A stretch of 64,000 nucleotides of DNA from Leifsonia shinshuensis (lineage in GTDB: Bacteria > Actinomycetota > Actinomycetes > Actinomycetales > Microbacteriaceae): NCBI RefSeq assembly GCF_014217625.1, contig NZ_CP043641.1:806001-870000 (forward strand). The letters are read 5' to 3'. This document shows, piece after piece, positions 8,870-18,989 of this stretch. Made by a program: the position numbers and the translations under genes. Each line of letters begins with the position of its first letter. Position 1 is the first letter of the stretch. The notes beneath the pieces were generated by a model. That model was not told the DNA's origin. It was given only the letters and a program-made list of their open reading frames with translations, and searched no databases.

Positions 8870-10195
8870 TCAGTTGTTGCCCTTCGTGCAGGTCTGCTGC
8901 GCGGCCGTCTGACCGGTGACGTTCGAGGGCAGATCGACCGCGCCGGACGAGTTGGTCGGGGCGGGCGTGCCGCTCGAGGTCGGGCTCGCGGGCGCCGTCG
9001 CGGTGTCGCTCGGCTGGGAGGTCTGGCTCGGCTGGGAGGTCGGCGTGGCCGTCGCGCTCGGGTCCTCCGCCGCTCGCCCGGTCGAGCCGGTGAGGGTGAC
9101 CGGCTGGTCGTTGACCAGCGCGTTGTTCACAGCGGTCGAGGCCTCCTCGTCCGGGATGACGCGGTTGATGTTGTCCGGGTCCGTCACCGCCGGATACTGC
9201 AGGAACACCATGTTCTGCAGGCCGGTGTCCTTGAGCGCGAGCGCGATCTCCACCAGCGTGGTCGGGTTGGTGAGCGTCTCCGACGGCGTGACGTTCTGCA
9301 CAGCGGCTTTGGCGAGCGCGTAGAGCTGCACCGGGTTGCCGAGCACTCCCCCGCTGACGATCTTGCGTGCGAGCGCGGACAGGAAAACCTGCTGGTTGGA
9401 GATGCGGCCGAGGTCGCTGCCGTCGCCGACGCCGTGCCGGCTGCGCAGGAATGAGAGCGCCTGATCCCCCACCAGCGTGCTCTCCCCGGCCGGGAGGTCG
9501 AGCGGCGGGTTCGTGTAGTCGTCCTGCACCTTCGACGCGAGGCAGACCGTGACGCCGCCGACGGCCGTCGACATCGCGCTCACGCCGTTGAAGTTGATGA
9601 CAGCGCCGAACGGGATGCTCACGCCGGTCAGCTTCTCGACGGTGAGCACCACGCAGGCGAGGCCGCCGCGCGACAGCGCCGTGTTGAACTGCGCGTACGA
9701 CGACCCGCTCACGGTGTCCTTGCCGTCCGGCGTCGGACACGTCGGGATGCGCACCATGAGGTCGCGCGGAAAGCTGACCACCATCATGCTCTTGTGGTCC
9801 TGCGCGATGTGCAGCAGCATCGTGACGTCGTTGTTGCCCTCGCCCGTGCTGGCGTCCTGCTCGGCCGCCGAGTTGTAGACGCCGCCGAGGCCGCTGCGGC
9901 TGTCCGTGCCCGCCAGCAGCAGGTTGACGCCGCCGGGGATGGCGCCCACATTCGGGATGTCCTGCGGGATCGCCGTGTGGCCGGGAAGCGTGACCAGGGT
10001 GACGCCGTGCTTCACCGAGCGGGCGACATCCCACACCGCGTACGCGGCGACCGAGAAGCTGCTGACCACCACGACCGCGACCACGCCCGCCAGCAGCTTG
10101 AGGACGGACGCCACCAACCGCCGCCGCGGCAGTCTCCCGTGCCGCACCGGCGCCGGCCCGCGCGGACGCTTCTGACGGCGAGTCAGGTCGGTCAT
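8870..10195 (-). CDS. LytR-CpsA-Psr (LCP) family cell-wall glycopolymer ligase
   Basis: Membrane-anchored phosphotransferase that attaches glycopolymers to peptidoglycan; acts outside the membrane. 441 aa from ATG 10195, with GGGGGAT just before it. A basic cytoplasmic tail and one TM helix (residues ~33-55) precede the LCP domain: NLLLAGTDSR, VVSFPRDLMVRIP (conserved Arg for the pyrophosphate), FGAVINFNGVSAM, and SFLRSRHGVGDGSDLGRISNQQ. The C-terminal ~80 residues form a Ser/Thr/Pro-rich low-complexity tail ending in ...CTKGNN. The reading frame is open for another ~700 nt upstream, but that part is a shadow of the divergent gene. Confidence 0.92.
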   Translation of the reverse strand: MTDLTRRQKRPRGPAPVRHGRLPRRRLVASVLKLLAGVVAVVVVSSFSVAAYAVWDVARSVKHGVTLVTLPGHTAIPQDIPNVGAIPGGVNLLLAGTDSRSGLGGVYNSAAEQDASTGEGNNDVTMLLHIAQDHKSMMVVSFPRDLMVRIPTCPTPDGKDTVSGSSYAQFNTALSRGGLACVVLTVEKLTGVSIPFGAVINFNGVSAMSTAVGGVTVCLASKVQDDYTNPPLDLPAGESTLVGDQALSFLRSRHGVGDGSDLGRISNQQVFLSALARKIVSGGVLGNPVQLYALAKAAVQNVTPSETLTNPTTLVEIALALKDTGLQNMVFLQYPAVTDPDNINRVIPDEEASTAVNNALVNDQPVTLTGSTGRAAEDPSATATPTSQPSQTSQPSDTATAPASPTSSGTPAPTNSSGAVDLPSNVTGQTAAQQTCTKGNN

Positions 10196-10352
10196 GCGGA
10201 TCCCCCGGGGCGGTTCGAAGAAGAGAACTGGGTGAATCCTAAGCGATGGGCGCTTTCGGATGGGGGCGGGGCGCGCGGATACGCCGGCAGGATGACGCGG
10301 GTCCGCAGCGGGAGGGACGACGGGCGCCGCGCCGAGGCGCTGGACTGGCGGG

Positions 10353-11609
10353 ATGGTTCCGCTGCTCCACCGCTTCGTGATCGGAGCAGCACTGCTCTGC
10401 GTCGTCGCCCTCCTCTCGTCGGTCCTCGCCGGGTGTTCGCAGCTGCCGGATCCGAAGCGGGACCTGATCGTGGCGGCGGCGAAGGTCGCGTTCGACGTGC
10501 GCACACAGCCGGGGGTGGCGGCGGCGTGGTCGGAGGTCGGGGATGCGGGCCGCGTCACCGTGCACGTGCGGCTGCAGCCGGAGGGCGAGCTGAGGGCCGC
10601 GGCGACGGCGGCCGCGGCCCTCGACGCCGCGCCGCTGCCCGGCGCGGAGGAGGTCACGCTCGCGGTCGCGGTTCCGGCTGCTCCGGGCCTCGCGCCGGTC
10701 GAGATCTCGCAGGCGCGCGCGCACCAGGACGGGATGCCGTTCCCGGCAGCGCTGGAGGCGGCGGACACGCTGCGACGGGTCGCGATCGCCGCGGAGGTCG
10801 GCATCACGTCCTCGGCTCTGTCGCTGCGACTGGACGACCACACCACGGCGGGGCCGTCCCCGCTCACGACGGCGGCGGCGGCCCTCCGCGGCGTCGCGGG
10901 CGTCCCCTCGCCCGTCACGGTGGAGTACCGGCCGCGGGACTCCTCCCGCTCCGTCTCGGTGGAGGTGGCCGACGACGGCCCGTCCGCGGAGCTTCTGGCC
11001 GCGCTGGACGAGCTGACCGTCCGCCCGGACGTCTCCAGGATCGTCCACCACGAGCAGCGCGGTCAGGATCGTCCGCTGCTCGACGTCCAGACCGACGACC
11101 CGGAGGCCGTCGCGCGGCTCCTGACGACCGTCGCCGACGACCACCCACCGCGCCCACGGACCGCGTTCTCCGCCCACACCGCCACGAACGCACCCCCGTT
11201 GAACGGGTACGTCGGCCTACCTCTCGCCGGTGCGGACCCACCTCCGCCCGCCGCTGAGGCCGCCCCGATCCTCGCGTCCTACGAGGCCGATCTCCGGGCC
11301 TTCCTGCTCCGGACCGCGGAAGCCGGCACCGCCACCTGCTCGGTCACGGACGGGCGCAGTGTGCAGTGCCTGGCCGAGCTCCCGCTCTGGCATGAAGCCG
11401 GCACGACCACGGAGGACGTCGAAGCCTGTTTCGCCGCCATCACCGCGGCCTGGCGCCACGCCGGGCTCACCAGTGGGGAACGCGCGCTCGGCACGGAGAT
11501 CTGGAGCCGGGGACCGCACGTCCCCGGGCCGGCCGGCGTCGACGTCGCCCGGATTCGCGGGACCACCGACGGAATCCGTGTCTCCGTCGAGTCCCCGACC
11601 GTGAGGTGA
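10353..11609 (+). CDS. Putative lipoprotein of unknown function
   Basis: 418 aa. The N-terminus is a lipoprotein signal peptide with hydrophobic core and lipobox VLAGC (Cys near residue 28). The rest is Ala/Val-rich, with alternating alpha/beta character and two Cys near residue 330-340 (CSVTDGRSVQC). No family was recognised. It is divergent from the LCP gene and precedes the exported-protein cassette, with a 229-nt gap. It could be an independent envelope protein or part of the cassette's envelope function; nothing in the sequence decides this. Confidence 0.7.
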   Translation: MVPLLHRFVIGAALLCVVALLSSVLAGCSQLPDPKRDLIVAAAKVAFDVRTQPGVAAAWSEVGDAGRVTVHVRLQPEGELRAAATAAAALDAAPLPGAEEVTLAVAVPAAPGLAPVEISQARAHQDGMPFPAALEAADTLRRVAIAAEVGITSSALSLRLDDHTTAGPSPLTTAAAALRGVAGVPSPVTVEYRPRDSSRSVSVEVADDGPSAELLAALDELTVRPDVSRIVHHEQRGQDRPLLDVQTDDPEAVARLLTTVADDHPPRPRTAFSAHTATNAPPLNGYVGLPLAGADPPPPAAEAAPILASYEADLRAFLLRTAEAGTATCSVTDGRSVQCLAELPLWHEAGTTTEDVEACFAAITAAWRHAGLTSGERALGTEIWSRGPHVPGPAGVDVARIRGTTDGIRVSVESPTVR

Positions 11610-11801
11610 GGCGCTGGCACACGCCGCCGCACGGGATGTGAGCCCCGAATGAACCCGCGACACCCCGCGCGACACGCCCGGGCTCCACGCGGGTGAAAGC
11701 CCAGACGATCATCTCGGCTCCCCCCGTGTCAGACCCCGATGAAACCCCTCCTCCCCCGCCGTTCCACCGCGAAACCCCGGTGCTACGGTCACGTCGCTGT
11801 A

Positions 11802-11838
11802 GACGGCCTGACCGTCTTCGACCGTTAGGGAGAGAGCA
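11802..11838 (+). promoter_or_regulatory. 5' leader of the exported-protein cassette with dyad and RBS
   Basis: A dyad GACGGCCTGACCGTC (11802-11816), followed by a partial repeat of GACCGT at 11820-11825, precedes a purine-rich RBS (AGGGAGAGAG, 11827-11836). No clear -35/-10 pair was recognised. The dyad may be an operator or a leader hairpin. Confidence 0.35.
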
Positions 11839-12504
11839 ATGATGCAAGAAGCCGCCGCGCCGCAGAAGCGCGGAATGTCCAAGAGAACTCGGGCGGTCGT
11901 CGGCCTGGGCGCTGTCGTCGCGATCGCGGCCGGCGTCACCGCCGCCGCCTTCACCGATTTCGCGAACCTCAACCTCGGGGCGAACGGGATCGGCGCCGAC
12001 CAGTACAACATCCAGGTGGTCGACACCGACCCCACGACAGGCGCGCAGATCCCCGGCTCGTGGCAAGAGGCGAACACGCCCGCAGGAGCCCCGATCGAGC
12101 TCGTCGGCGCGAACACGATCTTCCCGGGGAGCACGCCGATCTCGGTCGACATCCCGGTCCGGAACGCGTCCGCGACGCTGAACTCCACGCTGTCGCTCGG
12201 TCTCGTGCAGCTGCCGGACGCCGGAGCGAACGTGACCGACCCCGACTACCTGTCCAGCCTGCGGTTCACCGTCACGATGCCGGCGACCTCGCTCGGCGCG
12301 ACGCCGATCAGCGTCACCGACCAGACGTTCGCGGAGCTCAGCACACTCGCGCTGAACGGCCTGGCCGCCGGCGAGGAGTCGAGCGTCACCATCCAGGTGC
12401 GCCTGCTCACCCAGGCCGAGTCCGGCTCCACGTTCACGGACAACGACCTGAACGGCATGAAGGCGTTCATCCAGGCCCAGTTCAACGGCACGTCGGCTCC
12501 CTGA
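11839..12504 (+). CDS. SipW-dependent exported protein, TasA/camelysin-like (paralogue 1)
   Basis: 221 aa, first gene of the cassette. A basic region and hydrophobic segment end at AAAFTD (FTD at residues 38-40), the type of cleavage context processed by SipW-like signal peptidases. Then comes LGANGIGADQYNIQVVD, a motif echoed in the paralogues at 13090 and 15775. The rest is predicted all-beta and Thr/Ser-rich, and ends in FNGTSAP. Length and layout fit TasA/CotN (camelysin)-type proteins, which polymerise into extracellular fibres in Bacillus; fibre formation here is inference. Start ATG 11839, with a second ATG directly after. The next gene starts 4 nt after the stop. Confidence 0.85.
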   Translation: MMQEAAAPQKRGMSKRTRAVVGLGAVVAIAAGVTAAAFTDFANLNLGANGIGADQYNIQVVDTDPTTGAQIPGSWQEANTPAGAPIELVGANTIFPGSTPISVDIPVRNASATLNSTLSLGLVQLPDAGANVTDPDYLSSLRFTVTMPATSLGATPISVTDQTFAELSTLALNGLAAGEESSVTIQVRLLTQAESGSTFTDNDLNGMKAFIQAQFNGTSAP

Positions 12505-12508
12505 TCCG

Positions 12509-13093
12509 ATGACCCCACCCACTCTGCCGGCGCGTCGGTGGCGCCGCCCCGTCCTTGCCGCGGTCGGAGTCTGCGTCGCCTCGGCGATCGCCGTCACCGC
12601 CGCGAGCACCGTGAACTGGTCCGACGTCATCGTCGCGCTGGACGGAAGCGACAACACCTTCGACCTGCAGGTGGCGGGCAGCGACGTGCCCGGCTGGCAG
12701 CCGACGGCAGCCGAATGGCAGCAGGGCCGACCCGACCCGGTCGTGGTCGCCCTGCCCGCCACGGTCCTGGAACCCGGCACCTCCGTGCAGGCGCGCGTCG
12801 CCGTCCGGAACAGCAGCCCCCGGCTCGCCGGGTCGATCAGGGTGCACCTGGTCGACCCGGCCACGCCGAACGCGCTGTTCCCCGAGTTGCGTTTCACCAT
12901 CTCCGAAGGAGGCCACGTGTACGCGGCAGCAGTCCCGCCCACCGGCGCGGCGGACATCCCGCTCACCGGCGCGACGGCGCCCGGCGAGGACCGGGTCCTG
13001 GACGTGGAGGTCGCGCTGCCGGCCGACGCGCCCGCGAGCGTGAACGGATCGGTGACGCCCATCCGGCTCATGTTCACCGGGGTGAACCTGTGA
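12509..13093 (+). CDS. SipW-type exported protein (paralogue 2)
   Basis: 194 aa. It has a Pro/Arg-rich start, a hydrophobic helix (residues ~15-32), and then STVNWSD in place of the usual FTD motif (WSD at 37-39). SDNTFDLQVAGSDVPGW corresponds to the GxDxYNIQVVD segment of paralogue 1. A central VRNSSPRLAGSIRVHLVDP resembles VRNASATLNSTLSLGLVQ of paralogue 1. It ends MFTGVNL, close to the shared C-terminal F-x-G motif. Probably an exported beta-sandwich protein. The stop overlaps the next GTG start (GTGA). Confidence 0.82.
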   Translation: MTPPTLPARRWRRPVLAAVGVCVASAIAVTAASTVNWSDVIVALDGSDNTFDLQVAGSDVPGWQPTAAEWQQGRPDPVVVALPATVLEPGTSVQARVAVRNSSPRLAGSIRVHLVDPATPNALFPELRFTISEGGHVYAAAVPPTGAADIPLTGATAPGEDRVLDVEVALPADAPASVNGSVTPIRLMFTGVNL

Positions 13094-13740
13094 CCGGGCG
13101 GCGGGCGAGCAGCGCACGCCGGGTCTCCGCTCTGCGCCTCCTTCCGCGCGGACGGCGCGCACTGGCCGCCACCGGCCTCCTCGCCCTGAGCGCCGCCTTC
13201 GGCCTCGCCGCCCTCCAGACCACTTCGGCCGGGTTCACGGACCAGTCCGCTCCGCGGCTCGGCACGGGCGGCGCCATCGGCGGCTCCTACAACATCGCCT
13301 TCCTCGACGCGGGAGGCGCGATCCAGGAGGGCGACCCGACACCGCTCGCGCTGGACACCTCCGGCAACGGCGCCATCACGTTCGACGCCACCTCCGACGT
13401 CGCCATGCGGGTGGTCACCACGACCGTCGCGACCGGTCCCGTCCGGCTCTCCCTGTACAACGCCTACCCCGGGAGCCGCCCCAGCGATCCAGGGACCACC
13501 GGGCCCGGCGCCGATCCGTACGACTACGCCCTCTACACGGTCACGGTGGATGGGACCGCGGTCGTGACGGCCGCCACCGCCGCCGCGATCGACGCGGCGC
13601 CCCCCGTCCTCACCGGCTGGACGCAGAACACCCCGAAGGCGGTCACGGTCGCCGTCTCGCTGCCGCGCGCGATCGGGAATCCGTACGTCTTCGACCGCAC
13701 GCTCGTCCTCGGCGTCCGCTTCGACGGGAGCACCTCGTGA
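13090..13740 (+). CDS. SipW-type exported protein (paralogue 3)
   Basis: 216 aa, GTG start overlapping the previous stop by 4 nt. A long Arg-rich N-terminus and hydrophobic stretch lead to TSAGFTD (FTD at 49-51). GGAIGGSYNIAFLDAGG follows, matching the conserved block of paralogues 1 and 6. A Gly/Pro/Thr-rich loop (PGSRPSDPGTTGPGADP) lies in the middle. The C-terminus is VRFDGSTS, again the F-[DN]-G-[ST] ending. The function is likely structural at the cell surface. The stop overlaps the start of the LADTG protein gene (GTGA). Confidence 0.82.
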   Translation: MTGRRASSARRVSALRLLPRGRRALAATGLLALSAAFGLAALQTTSAGFTDQSAPRLGTGGAIGGSYNIAFLDAGGAIQEGDPTPLALDTSGNGAITFDATSDVAMRVVTTTVATGPVRLSLYNAYPGSRPSDPGTTGPGADPYDYALYTVTVDGTAVVTAATAAAIDAAPPVLTGWTQNTPKAVTVAVSLPRAIGNPYVFDRTLVLGVRFDGSTS

Positions 13741-14294
13741 GGGCCGCCGTCGTCGCGTCCGCCGCCCTCCTCGCGCTGGCCGGCGTGCTGCCCACCGCCT
13801 CCGCCGCGAACGCCGCCGACGTGGTCACCGTGCCGATGCCAGGTCCTGGCCATCAGAGCGCGTGGTCGGCCACCGTGCAGAATCCCGTCTCCGGCACGTC
13901 GAAGGTCTACCTCAACGTCGTCGGCGCGACCGGCGGCGCGGCGGGCATCGACGACGAGCTCACGCTCAGCGTCCAGGTGGACGGCGTCACCGTGATCGCG
14001 CCGACCCCGGTGCGCCGGATCCTCGGCGCCGGCCCGGTCGCGCTCGGCACCGTCGACGGCGGAAGCACGAAGACCGTCTCGGGCGAGGTCGCCCTCTCGA
14101 CGGCCGCCGGAAACGCCTACCAGGGACAGAGCGCCGAGGTCACCCTCCGGCTCAGCTCCGTGGCGCAGGAGTCCGCGCCTCCCCCGCTCGCCGACACCGG
14201 CCTCACGGTGATCGGCCTCGGCGTCCCTCTCGCCCTCGTCTCCCTGGGCGCCGTGTTCCTCCTGCGGCGCAGAAAGCAGAGTGCACAGCCATGA
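13737..14294 (+). CDS. LADTG-anchored surface protein of the cassette
   Basis: 185 aa, GTG start coupled to the previous gene. Unlike its neighbours it has a conventional signal peptide ending TASA-ANA (residues ~1-25). A single beta-rich domain follows, then APPPLADTG (sorting motif at residues 151-155), a hydrophobic helix and the tail RRRKQ, i.e. a complete cell-wall sorting signal of the LAxTG form used by class E sortases in high-GC actinobacteria. No sortase gene is in the window. As the only member with a wall anchor, it is the natural base for whatever the other proteins build (inference). Confidence 0.85.
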   Translation: MRAAVVASAALLALAGVLPTASAANAADVVTVPMPGPGHQSAWSATVQNPVSGTSKVYLNVVGATGGAAGIDDELTLSVQVDGVTVIAPTPVRRILGAGPVALGTVDGGSTKTVSGEVALSTAAGNAYQGQSAEVTLRLSSVAQESAPPPLADTGLTVIGLGVPLALVSLGAVFLLRRRKQSAQP

Positions 14295-15775
14295 CGCGCA
14301 GACCCATCACCCGGATCCGGCGTTCCGCCGCCGCCCGCGCGGCAGGGATGACCACCCTCGTCGCCATCGCGCTCGCCGCCGTCGCCGGAGTGCCGTCGAC
14401 CACGGCGGCGTACACCGACACCGCCGCGGCCGAGACCTCCCCGACCGACACGCCCCTGCTCACCCAGGCGGCGCGGATGATCCCGACGAACACCTACCTG
14501 GCCAACACGGCGACCGCCCTGCAGGACGACGGCACGCTGTGGGTGTGGGGCTTCCGCGGAAACGGCCTCGCCGGGAACGGCACCTTGACCGTCCCGTCCA
14601 CCGCCTCGCCGTCGCCCGTCGTCCTCCCGAACGACGGCTACACCGGCGCGAACCATCGGTACATCGTCAAGGTCGCCGGCACGAGCCTGGACGACTTCTA
14701 CCCCACCGACATCAACTACACCGGCCTCGCAGCGCTGTCCGACGACGGCCAGGTCTACACCTGGGGCGGCAGCAACACGAACAACGTCATGGGCCGGCCG
14801 AGCACGCCGATCCCCTATACGCAGCCGGGGCCGGTCGCCATCCCCGGGACCGTCGTCGACCTCCGCTCGTCCTCCGGCGTCTTCATGGCGCTCACCAGCA
14901 CGGGCGACCTGTACACCTGGGGCAACGCGCAGGGCCGCGGGATCACCGGCCAGGGCAGCGCGACGGCCTCCTCGCCGACTCCGTCCCTGATCATGTCGGG
15001 CGTGCACAGCATCGGCGCCGGCATGTGGAACGGGTGGGCGGTCCGCGGGAACTTCGACCCGAACGACCCGACCACCGGGGTCTTCTGGTGGGGATGGGCG
15101 AACGCGGGCTCCTCCTACGCCTCCGACCCCTCCGGCGACAACCTCGGCACGAACCAGTACACCCCGACCCGGTCGACGGGGCTGTCCCCGTTCGCCCAGT
15201 CCGGCTGCGACACGGTCGGGGTGGTGATGGGCTCCCCCGCGGACCAGTGCTCGATCGAGTCCCTGACCGGGCACTACTTCGGCAACCAGCTGGTCGCCGT
15301 GGGAGGTCACCTCGTGACGTGGGGCGACGCCTCCAACTTCGGCACCGGCCGGGCGTACGTCTCCGGGCCGATCAGCGCGACCCCGATCGCGTTGACGCTG
15401 CCGAACGACGACCTGGTCAAGCAGATCGCGCCGAGCCAGGACTACGTCGAGGTGCTGGGGATGTCCGGCCAGGTCTACATCTACGGCCGCTACTCGTTCG
15501 CACGCGGACCGGACCCGGTGTCGGGGACGGCGTCGACCACGAACATCGTGACCCCGACCCCGCTGCTCCCACTGGGCGACACGGTCAGCGCCGTCGGCGC
15601 CTTCGGCTACTCCGGAACGGCCCTGAACGCCGACGGCTCGTTCGTCAACTGGGGAGGCAGCACCGCGGGCGGCAACAACAACACCTACTCCTCGATCATC
15701 AACAGCTGGGCCGCCAACACCACACCCACGAACGCCGTCCAGGGGCTGACGACGATGATCACCCCGGGGTCGTGA
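14291..15775 (+). CDS. Exported RCC1-repeat protein with SipW-type signal
   Basis: 494 aa, ATGA overlap with the gene before. The N-terminus is basic, then hydrophobic, ending TTAAYTD (YTD at 41-43), the same cleavage context as the FTD proteins. The body has RCC1-type repeats, each with a Trp-Gly signature: TLWVWGFRGNGLAG, QVYTWGGSN, DLYTWGNAQG, HLVTWGDASNFG, SFVNWGGS, with QVYIYGRYS as a weaker copy. This predicts a beta-propeller of about seven blades. A two-Cys stretch (CDTVGV...DQC) may form a disulphide. Bacterial RCC1 proteins often mediate binding; the ligand here is unknown. Confidence 0.85.
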   Translation: MTRRPITRIRRSAAARAAGMTTLVAIALAAVAGVPSTTAAYTDTAAAETSPTDTPLLTQAARMIPTNTYLANTATALQDDGTLWVWGFRGNGLAGNGTLTVPSTASPSPVVLPNDGYTGANHRYIVKVAGTSLDDFYPTDINYTGLAALSDDGQVYTWGGSNTNNVMGRPSTPIPYTQPGPVAIPGTVVDLRSSSGVFMALTSTGDLYTWGNAQGRGITGQGSATASSPTPSLIMSGVHSIGAGMWNGWAVRGNFDPNDPTTGVFWWGWANAGSSYASDPSGDNLGTNQYTPTRSTGLSPFAQSGCDTVGVVMGSPADQCSIESLTGHYFGNQLVAVGGHLVTWGDASNFGTGRAYVSGPISATPIALTLPNDDLVKQIAPSQDYVEVLGMSGQVYIYGRYSFARGPDPVSGTASTTNIVTPTPLLPLGDTVSAVGAFGYSGTALNADGSFVNWGGSTAGGNNNTYSSIINSWAANTTPTNAVQGLTTMITPGS

Positions 15776-16458
15776 TGAAGCACAGGAGACAATCACGCAG
15801 AGGGATCGCCCTCGCCACCGTCGCCGCCGGAACGCTCGTCGTGACGGCCGCGCTGCTGACGGTCGGCCCGACGGTGAGCGCCTTCACCGACCGGGCGGCG
15901 CTGAACGCGGGGACGGACGGCATCGGCTCCGAGGCCTTCGACATCGTCTCCGTCCTCCCGGGCGGGGACGTCGCCCAGGCACTCCCCGGTCACGGCGTGA
16001 CGGTGCCGATCGCCGGCGACGACTCCCTCGTCCCCGGGGGCGCCCTCACTGTGAACCTCGGCGTCGCGAACAACTCGCCCTCGCTCGCCGCCGCCGTCAC
16101 CGTCGCCGTAAAGCCGTCGGACGCGGCCGGCACCGGCCAGGTCGACGGCAGCCCCAACATCACGCCGTTCCTCCGCGTCACCGTGGTCGACACGACGACC
16201 GGGCAGCTCCTGGTCGGCGGGAGCGCGTCCGACCCCAGCCAGGGCGCCGCGGTCGCGGACGCGTCGGCCGTGATCGGCCGCCTCCCGGCCCGCGGCTCCG
16301 CCGCCCTCGCCGACGGCGCCGCCTGGGTGGCGGGAAACGCCGGCAGCCGCCACGACCTCACGATCACGCTGTTCTACGTGGACACACCGGAGACCTCCGC
16401 CTACAACGGAGGCCAGACCGCCCTGGAGGTGGAGTTCGATGGCACGTCGGCGCAGTGA
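15775..16458 (+). CDS. SipW-type exported protein (paralogue 4)
   Basis: 227 aa from ATG 15775, overlapping the previous stop by 1 nt (TGATG); a GTG one codon upstream is also possible. A basic KHRRQSRRG region and hydrophobic helix end at VSAFTD (FTD 37-39). Then AALNAGTDGIGSEAFDIVSV, clearly related to the block in paralogue 1. VNLGVANNSPSLAAAVTVAV parallels the VRNxSxxL segment of the others. The C-terminus is VEFDGTSAQ, nearly the same as FNGTSAP of paralogue 1. The gene's last 20 nt overlap the signal peptidase gene. Confidence 0.83.
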   Translation: MKHRRQSRRGIALATVAAGTLVVTAALLTVGPTVSAFTDRAALNAGTDGIGSEAFDIVSVLPGGDVAQALPGHGVTVPIAGDDSLVPGGALTVNLGVANNSPSLAAAVTVAVKPSDAAGTGQVDGSPNITPFLRVTVVDTTTGQLLVGGSASDPSQGAAVADASAVIGRLPARGSAALADGAAWVAGNAGSRHDLTITLFYVDTPETSAYNGGQTALEVEFDGTSAQ

Positions 16459-17014
16459 GCCCCCGCGTCGCTCGGTGTGGAAGCTGCTCGGCTCGCTCCT
16501 GCTGACGTTCTCGGCCGTCGTCGGCGTGATCGCGATCGTGGCCGTGGCGGTCTGCGCGATCTTCGGCCTCCGCCCCGTGGTGGTGATCTCCGGCTCGATG
16601 GAGCCGGAGCTCCCGGTGGGATCGATGGTCTTCTACCGCACGGTCCCGGCGAAGGACGTCGCGGTCGGCGACATCGTGACGGTGCCCCGCTCGGATGGCG
16701 CCGCGGGCCTCATCACCCACCGTGTGAAGCAGGCGACGACGAAGGACGGCGTCACGACCCTGCGTCTGAAAGGCGACGCCAACGCGACGGAGGACCCGCT
16801 GCCGTACGTGGTCACCTCCGTCGGTGAGTTCGTCGGCCGGATCCCGCTGGCGGGCACGATCGCGCTCGCCGCGCGGACGCCCCTGGGCATCGCGGCGGTG
16901 GCGACGTACGTGGCGGCCTTGATCGCGGTGATCGTGTTCGGCCGCCGGCGACCCCAGCCGGGATCGCGCACCAGAGGTCGGCGACGGGCCGTACCGCGGG
17001 CGGCCGCCGACTGA
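16439..17014 (+). CDS. sipW: SipW-type signal peptidase I (S26B, Ser/His)
   Basis: 191 aa membrane protease that would cleave the signal peptides of the preceding genes. One N-terminal TM helix (residues ~17-43) is followed by SGSMEPELPVG with catalytic Ser53, then ITHRV with His94 in place of the Lys of ordinary bacterial type I enzymes, and KGDAN (Asp113). This Ser/His arrangement is the ER/archaeal/SipW class. A second TM helix (~145-166) and an Arg-rich tail close it. It overlaps the upstream gene by 20 nt; GGAG precedes the ATG. It is the last gene of the cassette before a strong terminator. The symbol is by class, not proven orthology. Confidence 0.9.
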   Translation: MARRRSEPPRRSVWKLLGSLLLTFSAVVGVIAIVAVAVCAIFGLRPVVVISGSMEPELPVGSMVFYRTVPAKDVAVGDIVTVPRSDGAAGLITHRVKQATTKDGVTTLRLKGDANATEDPLPYVVTSVGEFVGRIPLAGTIALAARTPLGIAAVATYVAALIAVIVFGRRRPQPGSRTRGRRRAVPRAAAD

Positions 17015-17054
17015 GCGCGCCCATGGAGAGGCCGGCTCATCGGCCCGCGCAATC

Positions 17055-17090
17055 AGAAAAGGCCGGCTTCCGAAGAAGCCGGCCTTTTCT
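17055..17090. terminator. Bidirectional intrinsic terminator
   Basis: A perfect 16-bp stem (17055-17070 with 17075-17090) with a CGAA loop, A-run on one side and TTTTCT on the other. It ends the sipW cassette on the plus strand and tRNA-Ala on the minus strand. Confidence 0.9.
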
Positions 17091-17098
17091 GTTCTCGG

Positions 17099-17171
17099 TG
17101 GATCTGAGGGGACTCGAACCCCTGACCCCCTGCATGCCATGCAGGTGCGCTACCAGCTGCGCCACAGACCC
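17099..17171 (-). tRNA. tRNA-Ala (anticodon GGC)
   Basis: 73 nt without CCA. Acceptor GGGTCTG pairs with CAGATCC and includes the G3:U70 pair that identifies tRNA-Ala, with discriminator A73. The anticodon stem CCTGC/GCAGG holds the loop ATGGCAT, giving GGC (reads GCC). The T arm contains TTCGAGT. CCA is not encoded. It lies downstream of rsfS on the same strand. Confidence 0.97.
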
Positions 17172-17308
17172 CCATGTTGAATTATCAGTACCTTTGTTGT
17201 TGTTCACCGGGTCTCCCCGGGCAACTCATCAAGCGTACTACACGCGGGCGGCGCAACGTAAATCGGCCGTGCAGCCCGGGCGTGTGCGCTCCGCGCCCGC
17301 TTCCGGGG

Positions 17309-17683
17309 CTACTCCGCGGTGTGGACCGGGAGCTCGAGCGGGAGGACCGGGCAGTCCTTCCAGAGGCGCTCGAGGGCGTAGTACATGCGGTCTTCCTCGT
17401 GGAAGACGTGCACCACGAGGTCGCCGAAGTCCAGGAGGATCCAGCGGCCCTCCGCCTTGCCCTCGCGGCGCAGCGTGCGTACGCCGGCGTCGTTCAGCCG
17501 GTCCTCCACCTCGGAGGCGATCGCGATCACGTTGCGTTCGACCGAGCCGGACACGAGGAGGAAGGCGTCCGTCAGGGGCAGCGGGCCGGAGACGTCCAGC
17601 GCCACCAGGTCGATGCCGCCCTTCGAGTCGGCGGCGGCGGCCGCGAGCTGGAGGATGTCCCGGGCATGCGGGGAGGCGGTCAC
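17309..17683 (-). CDS. rsfS: Ribosome silencing factor RsfS
   Basis: 124 aa Iojap/RsfS protein that binds ribosomal protein L14 and blocks subunit joining when nutrients are scarce. Conserved pieces: DIVALDV-type GIDLVALDVSG near residue 23, LTDAFLLVSGSVERNV, and the core GRWILLDFGDLVVHVFHEEDRMYYALERLW. The length is normal. It forms a minus-strand group with nadD and the membrane protein gene between them, a usual actinobacterial arrangement. Confidence 0.95.
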   Translation of the reverse strand: MTASPHARDILQLAAAAADSKGGIDLVALDVSGPLPLTDAFLLVSGSVERNVIAIASEVEDRLNDAGVRTLRREGKAEGRWILLDFGDLVVHVFHEEDRMYYALERLWKDCPVLPLELPVHTAE

Positions 17684-17732
17684 AGAGAGTCCTTCGGAAG
17701 AGAGCGGGTCGAGAAGAAGTGTTCGCGGGTCA

Positions 17733-18989
17733 TCAGAACACGTGGAGCACGTACGCCGCGATCAGCAGGCCGATCACGCCGACGGCGAGCACGCCCGCGG
17801 TCACCATGAGCACCACCGGGAGGGCGTTGCCGCGCTTCTTCGGCGGGGCGATGACGCCGCGCGTCGAGGTGTGCGTGCTGATCGCCCGCGACGCGCGCAC
17901 CGGCGCGACCTCGGAGGTGTTGAACTCGTTCTCCTCGCTGTCCAGCAGCCGGTCGATGTCGGAGGAGTCGATGCGGTCGTGGGCACCGGTCGCCCCGAGC
18001 GTGCGCGGCAGGTCGATCGAGCCGGTGACGAGGATCTCGCCGGTGCTGGTCAGCGGGCCCGTGGCGTCCGCCTGCGGCAGCGACGGGAGGATCAGCGCGT
18101 TGGTCGTGGTCGCCGCCGTCGAGTGGCCGACGTTGCGGGAGGTGATCGGCTCGGAGCCGTCCTCCAGCTCGGCCGCCATCGACCAGTGGCCGGTCGGCGG
18201 CGTGAACGGACGGCGCTCCTGCGCGGAGGTGTCCTCGTCGTCCTCGACAGGGGCGGCAGCGGTAGCGGCCGGCGCGGCGGGAGCCTGCGATCCGAACGCC
18301 GTGAAGACGGACGTCGGCGAGGATGTCACCGCGCTGTCGGCCTGCGACGCCGCGGAGACCGGGGCCGCGGGCGCCCCCTCGTCGGTGAAGCTCACGGGGA
18401 TGATCGGCTCGGCGATGGCCGGCGAGTGGTTCGCCTGCTGGTTCGCCGCCTGCGCCTGCAGCATGGCCCGCAGCTCGCGGCGGGTCAGCGTGCGCTCACC
18501 GGTCGGGTCGGACTCGTCCGACGCGGACGGCGGAGGAGTCGTGATCTGCTGCGACGTCGCGCGCACAGGAGCCTGAGCGGCCGCAGCCGCCCCCGGCAGA
18601 ACGCTCATCGGCTGCGTCACCGGCTCGGGCTTGGACGGGTCCGGCGCCTGCCGGAACAAGTCGAACGACGACGCGTCCGAGCTGGGGTCGGAGCCCGAGC
18701 GCTTGGGGGCGCTGAACAGGAGGTTGTCGAAGCTGCCGCCCGACGACACGCCGGGCTCGGCGAACGCGCTGGCGGGGATGGCCGGTGCCTGCTCCTCGTT
18801 CGAGGACGGAGCGTCGGAGGGGGCTCCGGGAGTCGCGGACGTCTCGGGGATCTCCCCCGCAGGCGTGATCTCGGAGGTGCCCGCACGGCGCGACGCCTGC
18901 CGAGCCGCCGTACGCTCGTTCTCTCTGGCCTGTCGCCGTGTCTGCGGCGGCTGGCTCGCTTCCGCTGGCTGTTCAGGCCATGACGTCAT
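17733..18989 (-). CDS. Hypothetical protein with disordered N-terminus and C-terminal membrane anchor
   Basis: 418 aa, function unknown. Nearly all of the protein is low-complexity (Ala/Pro/Ser/Thr/Glu-rich, few hydrophobic runs), apart from one TM helix at the very C-terminus ([20 protein letters not shown], residues ~386-416). An Arg-rich [16 protein letters not shown] patch is near the start. Such proteins lie between nadD and rsfS in Microbacteriaceae. The start codon overlaps the nadD stop by 4 nt. The layout suggests a tail-anchored cytoplasmic scaffold, which is speculative. Confidence 0.75.

Follow-up and report, generated by a model that had tools for sequence, protein, structure and literature searches.

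The window analysed here, a 64,000-nucleotide stretch of Leifsonia shinshuensis to which all coordinates refer, contains seven genes in a row on the + strand (11839-17014), designated A1, A2, A3, LP, RC, A6 and SW. This cassette probably encodes a TasA-type surface fibre which is matured by the signal peptidase SW, anchored to the cell wall by a sortase and equipped with a propeller protein as cap or adhesin. The original prediction of a SipW-type surface-fibre-like cassette is supported, since the structure model of A1 is TasA-like and the gene order is conserved. The cassette is confirmed as real, tightly packed and under purifying selection. The ratios of nonsynonymous to synonymous substitution rates (dN/dS) were 0.15-0.76 in 21 of 21 gene pairs when three relatives were compared, and the gene order recurs elsewhere; hence the cassette is beyond chance. 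LP had the highest dN/dS in all three comparisons. The gene spacing first described, overlaps of 1-20 nucleotides or a 4-nucleotide gap, holds on the gene coordinates, and the gene classes hold as well, with SW above the cut-off of TIGR02228, RC above that of PF00415 and an LADTG motif in LP.

Structures were predicted for A1 and LP, and the other short exported proteins were tied to A1 by profile comparison. A1 (11839..12504), the proposed main subunit, was modelled as a TasA-type beta-sandwich, and its top matches among solved structures were the TasA fibre and then the Pyrobaculum bundling pilus. Two PDB matches were obtained at E <= 0.001, both to donor-strand fibres. The structural match scores of the A1 and LP models were moderate, and the model suggests that A1 fits a TasA beta-sandwich subunit at the level of the fold. 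Profile comparison showed that A2 (12509..13093, after a 4-nucleotide gap), A3 (13090..13740, GTG start, overlapping A2 by 4 nucleotides) and A6 (15775..16458, overlapping RC by 1 nucleotide) are homologous to A1. The earlier description of the subunits as TasA-like is therefore borne out directly for A1, by the match of its model to the TasA fibre, and through homology to A1 for the other three. At the sequence level, A1 had no match at E <= 1 among solved structures, and PF12389 (TasA/camelysin, Peptidase_M73) had no match at E <= 1 in the seven cassette proteins. PF12389 had no match anywhere in the genome either, while a B. subtilis control does match, and a camelysin protease activity was rejected on these grounds. 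The most conserved stretch of A1 is the N-terminus that the predicted cleavage would free. Annotators already recognise this type of signal, since some A1 relatives carry names such as "SipW-cognate class signal peptide" or "Alternate-type signal peptide domain" protein.

SW (16439..17014, overlapping A6 by 20 nucleotides) is a SipW-like (Ser/His) signal peptidase encoded together with the subunits. It scored 79.7 bits on TIGR02228 (cut-off 51.85), and its Ser53 and His94 were invariant in all 14 relatives aligned. On NF046067, the equivalog of Bacillus SipW, it reached 55.5 bits, under the cut-off of 190. The SipW-type motif T-x-A-A-F/Y-T-D, judged by eye, is present in A1 (TAAAFTD), A3, A6 and RC (TTAAYTD), and A2 is without the FTD core. 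The family of SipW-dependent signal peptides, TIGR04088, gave A1 13.4 bits, under its cut-off of 19, and no match at E <= 1 in the other six cassette proteins.

LP (13737..14294, overlapping A3 by 4 nucleotides) begins with a signal peptide that looks ordinary. It carries LADTG, a hydrophobic stretch and an RRRK tail, and it was modelled with a fold similar to A1, a weaker case than A1 itself, in which the donor-strand segment is absent. The sorting signal of LP is the sole one among the seven cassette proteins and was found on LP in 20 of 21 loci. The genome encodes a class E sortase (234 bits, cut-off 160), the class for LAxTG substrates, and LP carries the LAxTG motif, hydrophobic stretch and basic tail of such a substrate. 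The two sortase genes of the genome lie about 2.2 and 2.5 Mb from the cassette, and its class C sortase adjoins a SpaH/EbpB-type pilin of its own (L155 8034-10417).

RC (14291..15775, overlapping LP by 4 nucleotides) scored 24.3 bits on the RCC1 family PF00415 (cut-off 21.7) and 91.8 bits on PF25390, under the cut-off of 150. Seven blade strands were recognised by sequence pattern, and the RC profile matched RCC1 and HERC2 structures; RC is thus predicted from its sequence to be a seven-bladed RCC1 propeller. The 19 aligned relatives are 41-80% identical to RC. In a profile comparison, residues 6-46 of RC, a region that takes in the signal peptide, matched the beginning of A3 (probability 92). 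Since RC has both the motif and an A3-like start, it appears to be another client of SW. The motif on RC, and RC as a core partner, go beyond the original prediction. No match to RC was found in 72,556 plasmid records. Bap1, a beta-propeller protein, is described as serving in the Vibrio matrix (PMC10903470).

Linkage was assessed in a sample of 299 genomes of the family. Of these, 18 had A1-type genes (E <= 1e-5), 3 had close relatives of RC (E <= 1e-30) and 100 had SW-type peptidases (E <= 1e-25). The peptidase matches split, with 13 in 11 genomes at E <= 3.8e-53 and the next at 9.6e-45; the cut defining this clade was set after the gap had been seen, and 6 of the 13 had contributed rows to the SW profile (the window, L033, L187, L188, L191 and L193). 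Each of the 13 clade peptidases has an A1-type gene nearby, at a start-to-start distance of at most about 5.2 kb. Of the 13 family cassettes with a clade peptidase, 12 have an RC-type gene, and none was found in genome G030. Six of the 13 (the window, L033, L186, L188, L192 and L193) had contributed rows to the broader RC2 profile; among cassettes that contributed none, it matched L152, L153, L187, L190, L191 and L194 and had no match in L189. A narrower RC profile matched L186 (8e-16), L187 (9e-10), L191 (6e-5), L192 (1e-17) and L193 (4e-18) and had no match in L188, and L190 and L194 were matched by the RC2 profile only. The RCC1 protein is a core partner of the cassette. RCC1 repeats in general were found in 35 of the 299 genomes, also away from cassettes, and therefore the link between RC and the cassette is not due to RCC1 ubiquity.

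One of the tests proposed with the original prediction was synteny, and the seven genes do travel together in other genera and families. Presence was scored by searching stop-to-stop frames with profiles, as the gene caller places some starts too late and breaks down at loci of lower GC; genes are ordered by where the frame begins, so that a few neighbours trade places. The full order was found at 11 loci among those examined, the window included. Within the genus it is present in the window's genome, in G020 and G006 at the same site and in G013 at another site (loci fetched). Two other genera of the family have it, one genome twice (G051; L152 and L153) and one once (G313; L188), and so do four loci of Cellulomonas/Cellulosimicrobium (L066, L067, L073 and L074), out of nine actinobacterial loci (L066-L074). 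As for the rest of the nine, L070 (Propionibacteriaceae) has every cassette gene with RC placed last, contig ends truncate L068 and L069, the latter without A2 or LP between A1 and RC, and no SW was found in the available stretch of L071 and L072. In another family of the order, three genomes (L204-L206) lack LP and combine an A1-like gene with SW and RC, L204 also with a weak A3 match, and in a fourth (L207) RC and SW are 2.4 kb apart and A1 is absent. The cassette is a conserved module, with sets incomplete or in another order in several relatives; the incomplete sets limit the earlier claim of a complete set for a surface structure.

From the genes, the A1 and LP models, the subunit homology, the motifs, the gene order and the class E sortase, all of them computed, we infer cleavage by SW, polymerisation, polarity, anchoring and binding by the propeller as follows. 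SW would strip the special signal peptides from A1, A3, A6 and RC, and perhaps from A2, freeing an extended N-terminus that starts with A-F/Y-T-D. This N-terminus would serve as a donor strand that slots into the open sandwich of the following subunit, as in TasA. The fibres of TasA are reported to assemble by donor-strand exchange (PMC9674648), so the term "amyloid-like" used in the original prediction is outdated. A1 would polymerise as the main subunit, with A3, A6 and A2 as minor or specialised ones. LP would fix one fibre end to the wall via the class E sortase of the genome; with a sandwich and a sorting signal and no donor segment, it could only accept a strand. RC may form the cap or tip of the fibre, acting as an adhesin or binding head, or may initiate it like TapA; with a processed N-terminus and a propeller without an open sandwich, it could only donate one. 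The more specific suggestion of a polar, chaperone-free, Gram-positive donor-strand pilus, with RC at the tip, a TasA-like shaft and LP tying the shaft covalently to the wall, is tentative and rather doubtful.

Most work on TasA-type fibres concerns Bacillus and a single archaeon. If the wall-anchored fibre proposed here is true, a conserved actinobacterial form, paired with a sorting-signal protein and a propeller, would show how such fibres attach to the cell and what they carry, and secreted bacterial RCC1 proteins, a family mostly labelled hypothetical at present, would gain a role. It would become possible to test in soil bacteria how donor-strand matrix fibres are attached and what their polarity is.

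Several observations weigh against a fibre. Beta-sandwiches are common and the structural scores moderate, the cassette has four different subunits and not one major pilin, and other SipW-like loci of the genus carry large LPXTG proteins instead. SW might then mature separate beta-sandwich surface proteins that form no polymer, with the propeller as an independent secreted binding protein. We consider this unlikely, because the two PDB matches of A1 below the threshold are both donor-strand fibres, the freed N-terminus is its most conserved stretch and the gene order is fixed.

If there is a fibre, it might be a free matrix fibre as in Bacillus, with LP and RC as assembly factors in the manner of TapA or CapP and not as anchor and head. 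TapA is described as giving a donor strand and is thought to be outside the fibre beyond initiation (PMC10151520), CapP is described as a chaperone-like factor of the sortase-independent B. cereus system (PMC13082335), and the three LP-less loci of another family would agree with such a role. However, the sorting signal on LP is nearly constant among loci, the genome has the matching sortase class and a 450-residue propeller is large for a chaperone, which makes a free fibre improbable. The one sorting signal of the cassette and the class C sortase of the genome could also suggest a SpaA-type pilus, in which subunits are covalently linked by sortase. Neither a class C sortase with the cluster nor sorting signals on its putative pilins were found; LP alone of the seven proteins carries the signal, the sortase genes are distant and the class C enzyme is beside its own SpaH-type pilin. 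A sortase-assembled pilus is therefore so improbable that we regard it as ruled out.

TasA-like systems have been described as phylogenetically widespread (PMC10903470), so the class of system is already known. The cassette resembles tapA-sipW-tasA of Bacillus subtilis in having a SipW-like peptidase in an operon with TasA-fold subunits that bear a special signal motif. It differs in its four homologous subunits, its sorting-signal protein, its RCC1 propeller and the lack of a PF12389 match. The sipW-tasA/calY system of Bacillus cereus with CapP likewise has more than one TasA-type subunit with SipW, whereas it is described as sortase-independent and a propeller is not mentioned in the accounts drawn on (PMC13082335, PMC10151520). 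In Clostridium perfringens, sipW-bsaABCRSD is similarly described as comprising SipW, a polymer-forming secreted protein, more secreted proteins and regulators; unlike in the cassette, the BsaA polymer is reported to be without LPXTG and not to need the nearby sortase, and the regulator is a two-component system, where relatives of the cassette have a LuxR/STAND protein (PMC7395162). The Pyrobaculum bundling pilus, the second-best structural match of A1, is archaeal and is likened by subunit fold alone. Unlike chaperone-usher pili (Fim/Pap), the cassette has no chaperone or usher among its genes, and the proposed RC head would give and not take a strand, a reverse polarity. In the open-licence literature (titles and abstract starts, among the matches listed), no description of an actinobacterial SipW/TasA-like cassette was found, in line with the original statement that no counterpart was known, and no report of RCC1 together with SipW or TasA. 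Within the scope of that search, what appears new is the composition, namely several homologous subunits, an LAxTG protein and an RCC1 propeller.

The cassette occupies a variable site, where it is present or absent as a unit. Against G020 and G006, blastn similarity spans it as one block from 11777 to 16950. The neighbouring rsfS was found in 28 genomes, and five of these that do not have the cassette there were checked at the same site (G007, G008, G010, G014 and G016); the cassette is missing in all five while the flanking DNA, the tRNA/rsfS side and the LCP gene, stays. Between the flanks, no gene is predicted in G014 and G016, one short gene in G007 and several other genes in G010 and G008. 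Cargo of a mobile element at tRNA-Ala was rejected, as none of the 17 direct-repeat families in 10200-17200 includes the tRNA stretch and RC had no plasmid match.

A conserved leader (11777..11838, + strand) precedes A1, with blastn similarity to the two relatives starting at 11777/11778. No sigma-70 promoter consensus was found in 11500-17300. Downstream of SW, a hairpin of 17 pairs (17054..17091, + strand; -32 kcal/mol, z -6.5) is likely a transcription terminator by its sequence, and it was absent from the output of the consensus scan. A tRNA-Ala (GGC) gene (17097..17171, - strand) adjoins the cassette from outside and was the sole match in the Rfam scan of 10000-18500. Upstream of the cassette, a predicted lipoprotein-like gene of 418 residues (10353-11609) has no Pfam match and is missing from the two relatives whose cassette occupies this site.

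Many cassettes are accompanied by a regulator whose length is about 760-880 residues and whose DNA-binding end is of the LuxR type (PF00196 matched in all 3 scanned). This LuxR/STAND-type gene adjoins the cassette in L035, L036, L037, L069, L070, L072, L074, L188, L191, L192 and L193, by a profile built from most of these loci, to which L035 and L192 contributed no rows. No such regulator adjoins the cassette of the window, and the LuxR/STAND paralogues of its genome (best 32% identity) are all elsewhere. In L036 and L037, from small-genome members of the genus, cassette parts lie beside a SipW-like match and a LuxR-type regulator, and these partial cassettes look like decay.

A SipW-like match of some kind was found in 22 of the 28 genus genomes. 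The window's own genome has a second SipW-like gene after genes of about 193 and 530 residues (L032 7255-10098), and a similar arrangement is present in another genome (L062 7351-10172). A different arrangement occurs in the genus at L040, L044, L046, L047, L054, L056, L057 and L058, which begins with a gene for a long LPXTG-type protein (called length about 660-2090 residues) and continues with one or two short genes. A SipW-like gene, with a called length of 393-480 residues, comes next, and then a gene of about 155 residues.
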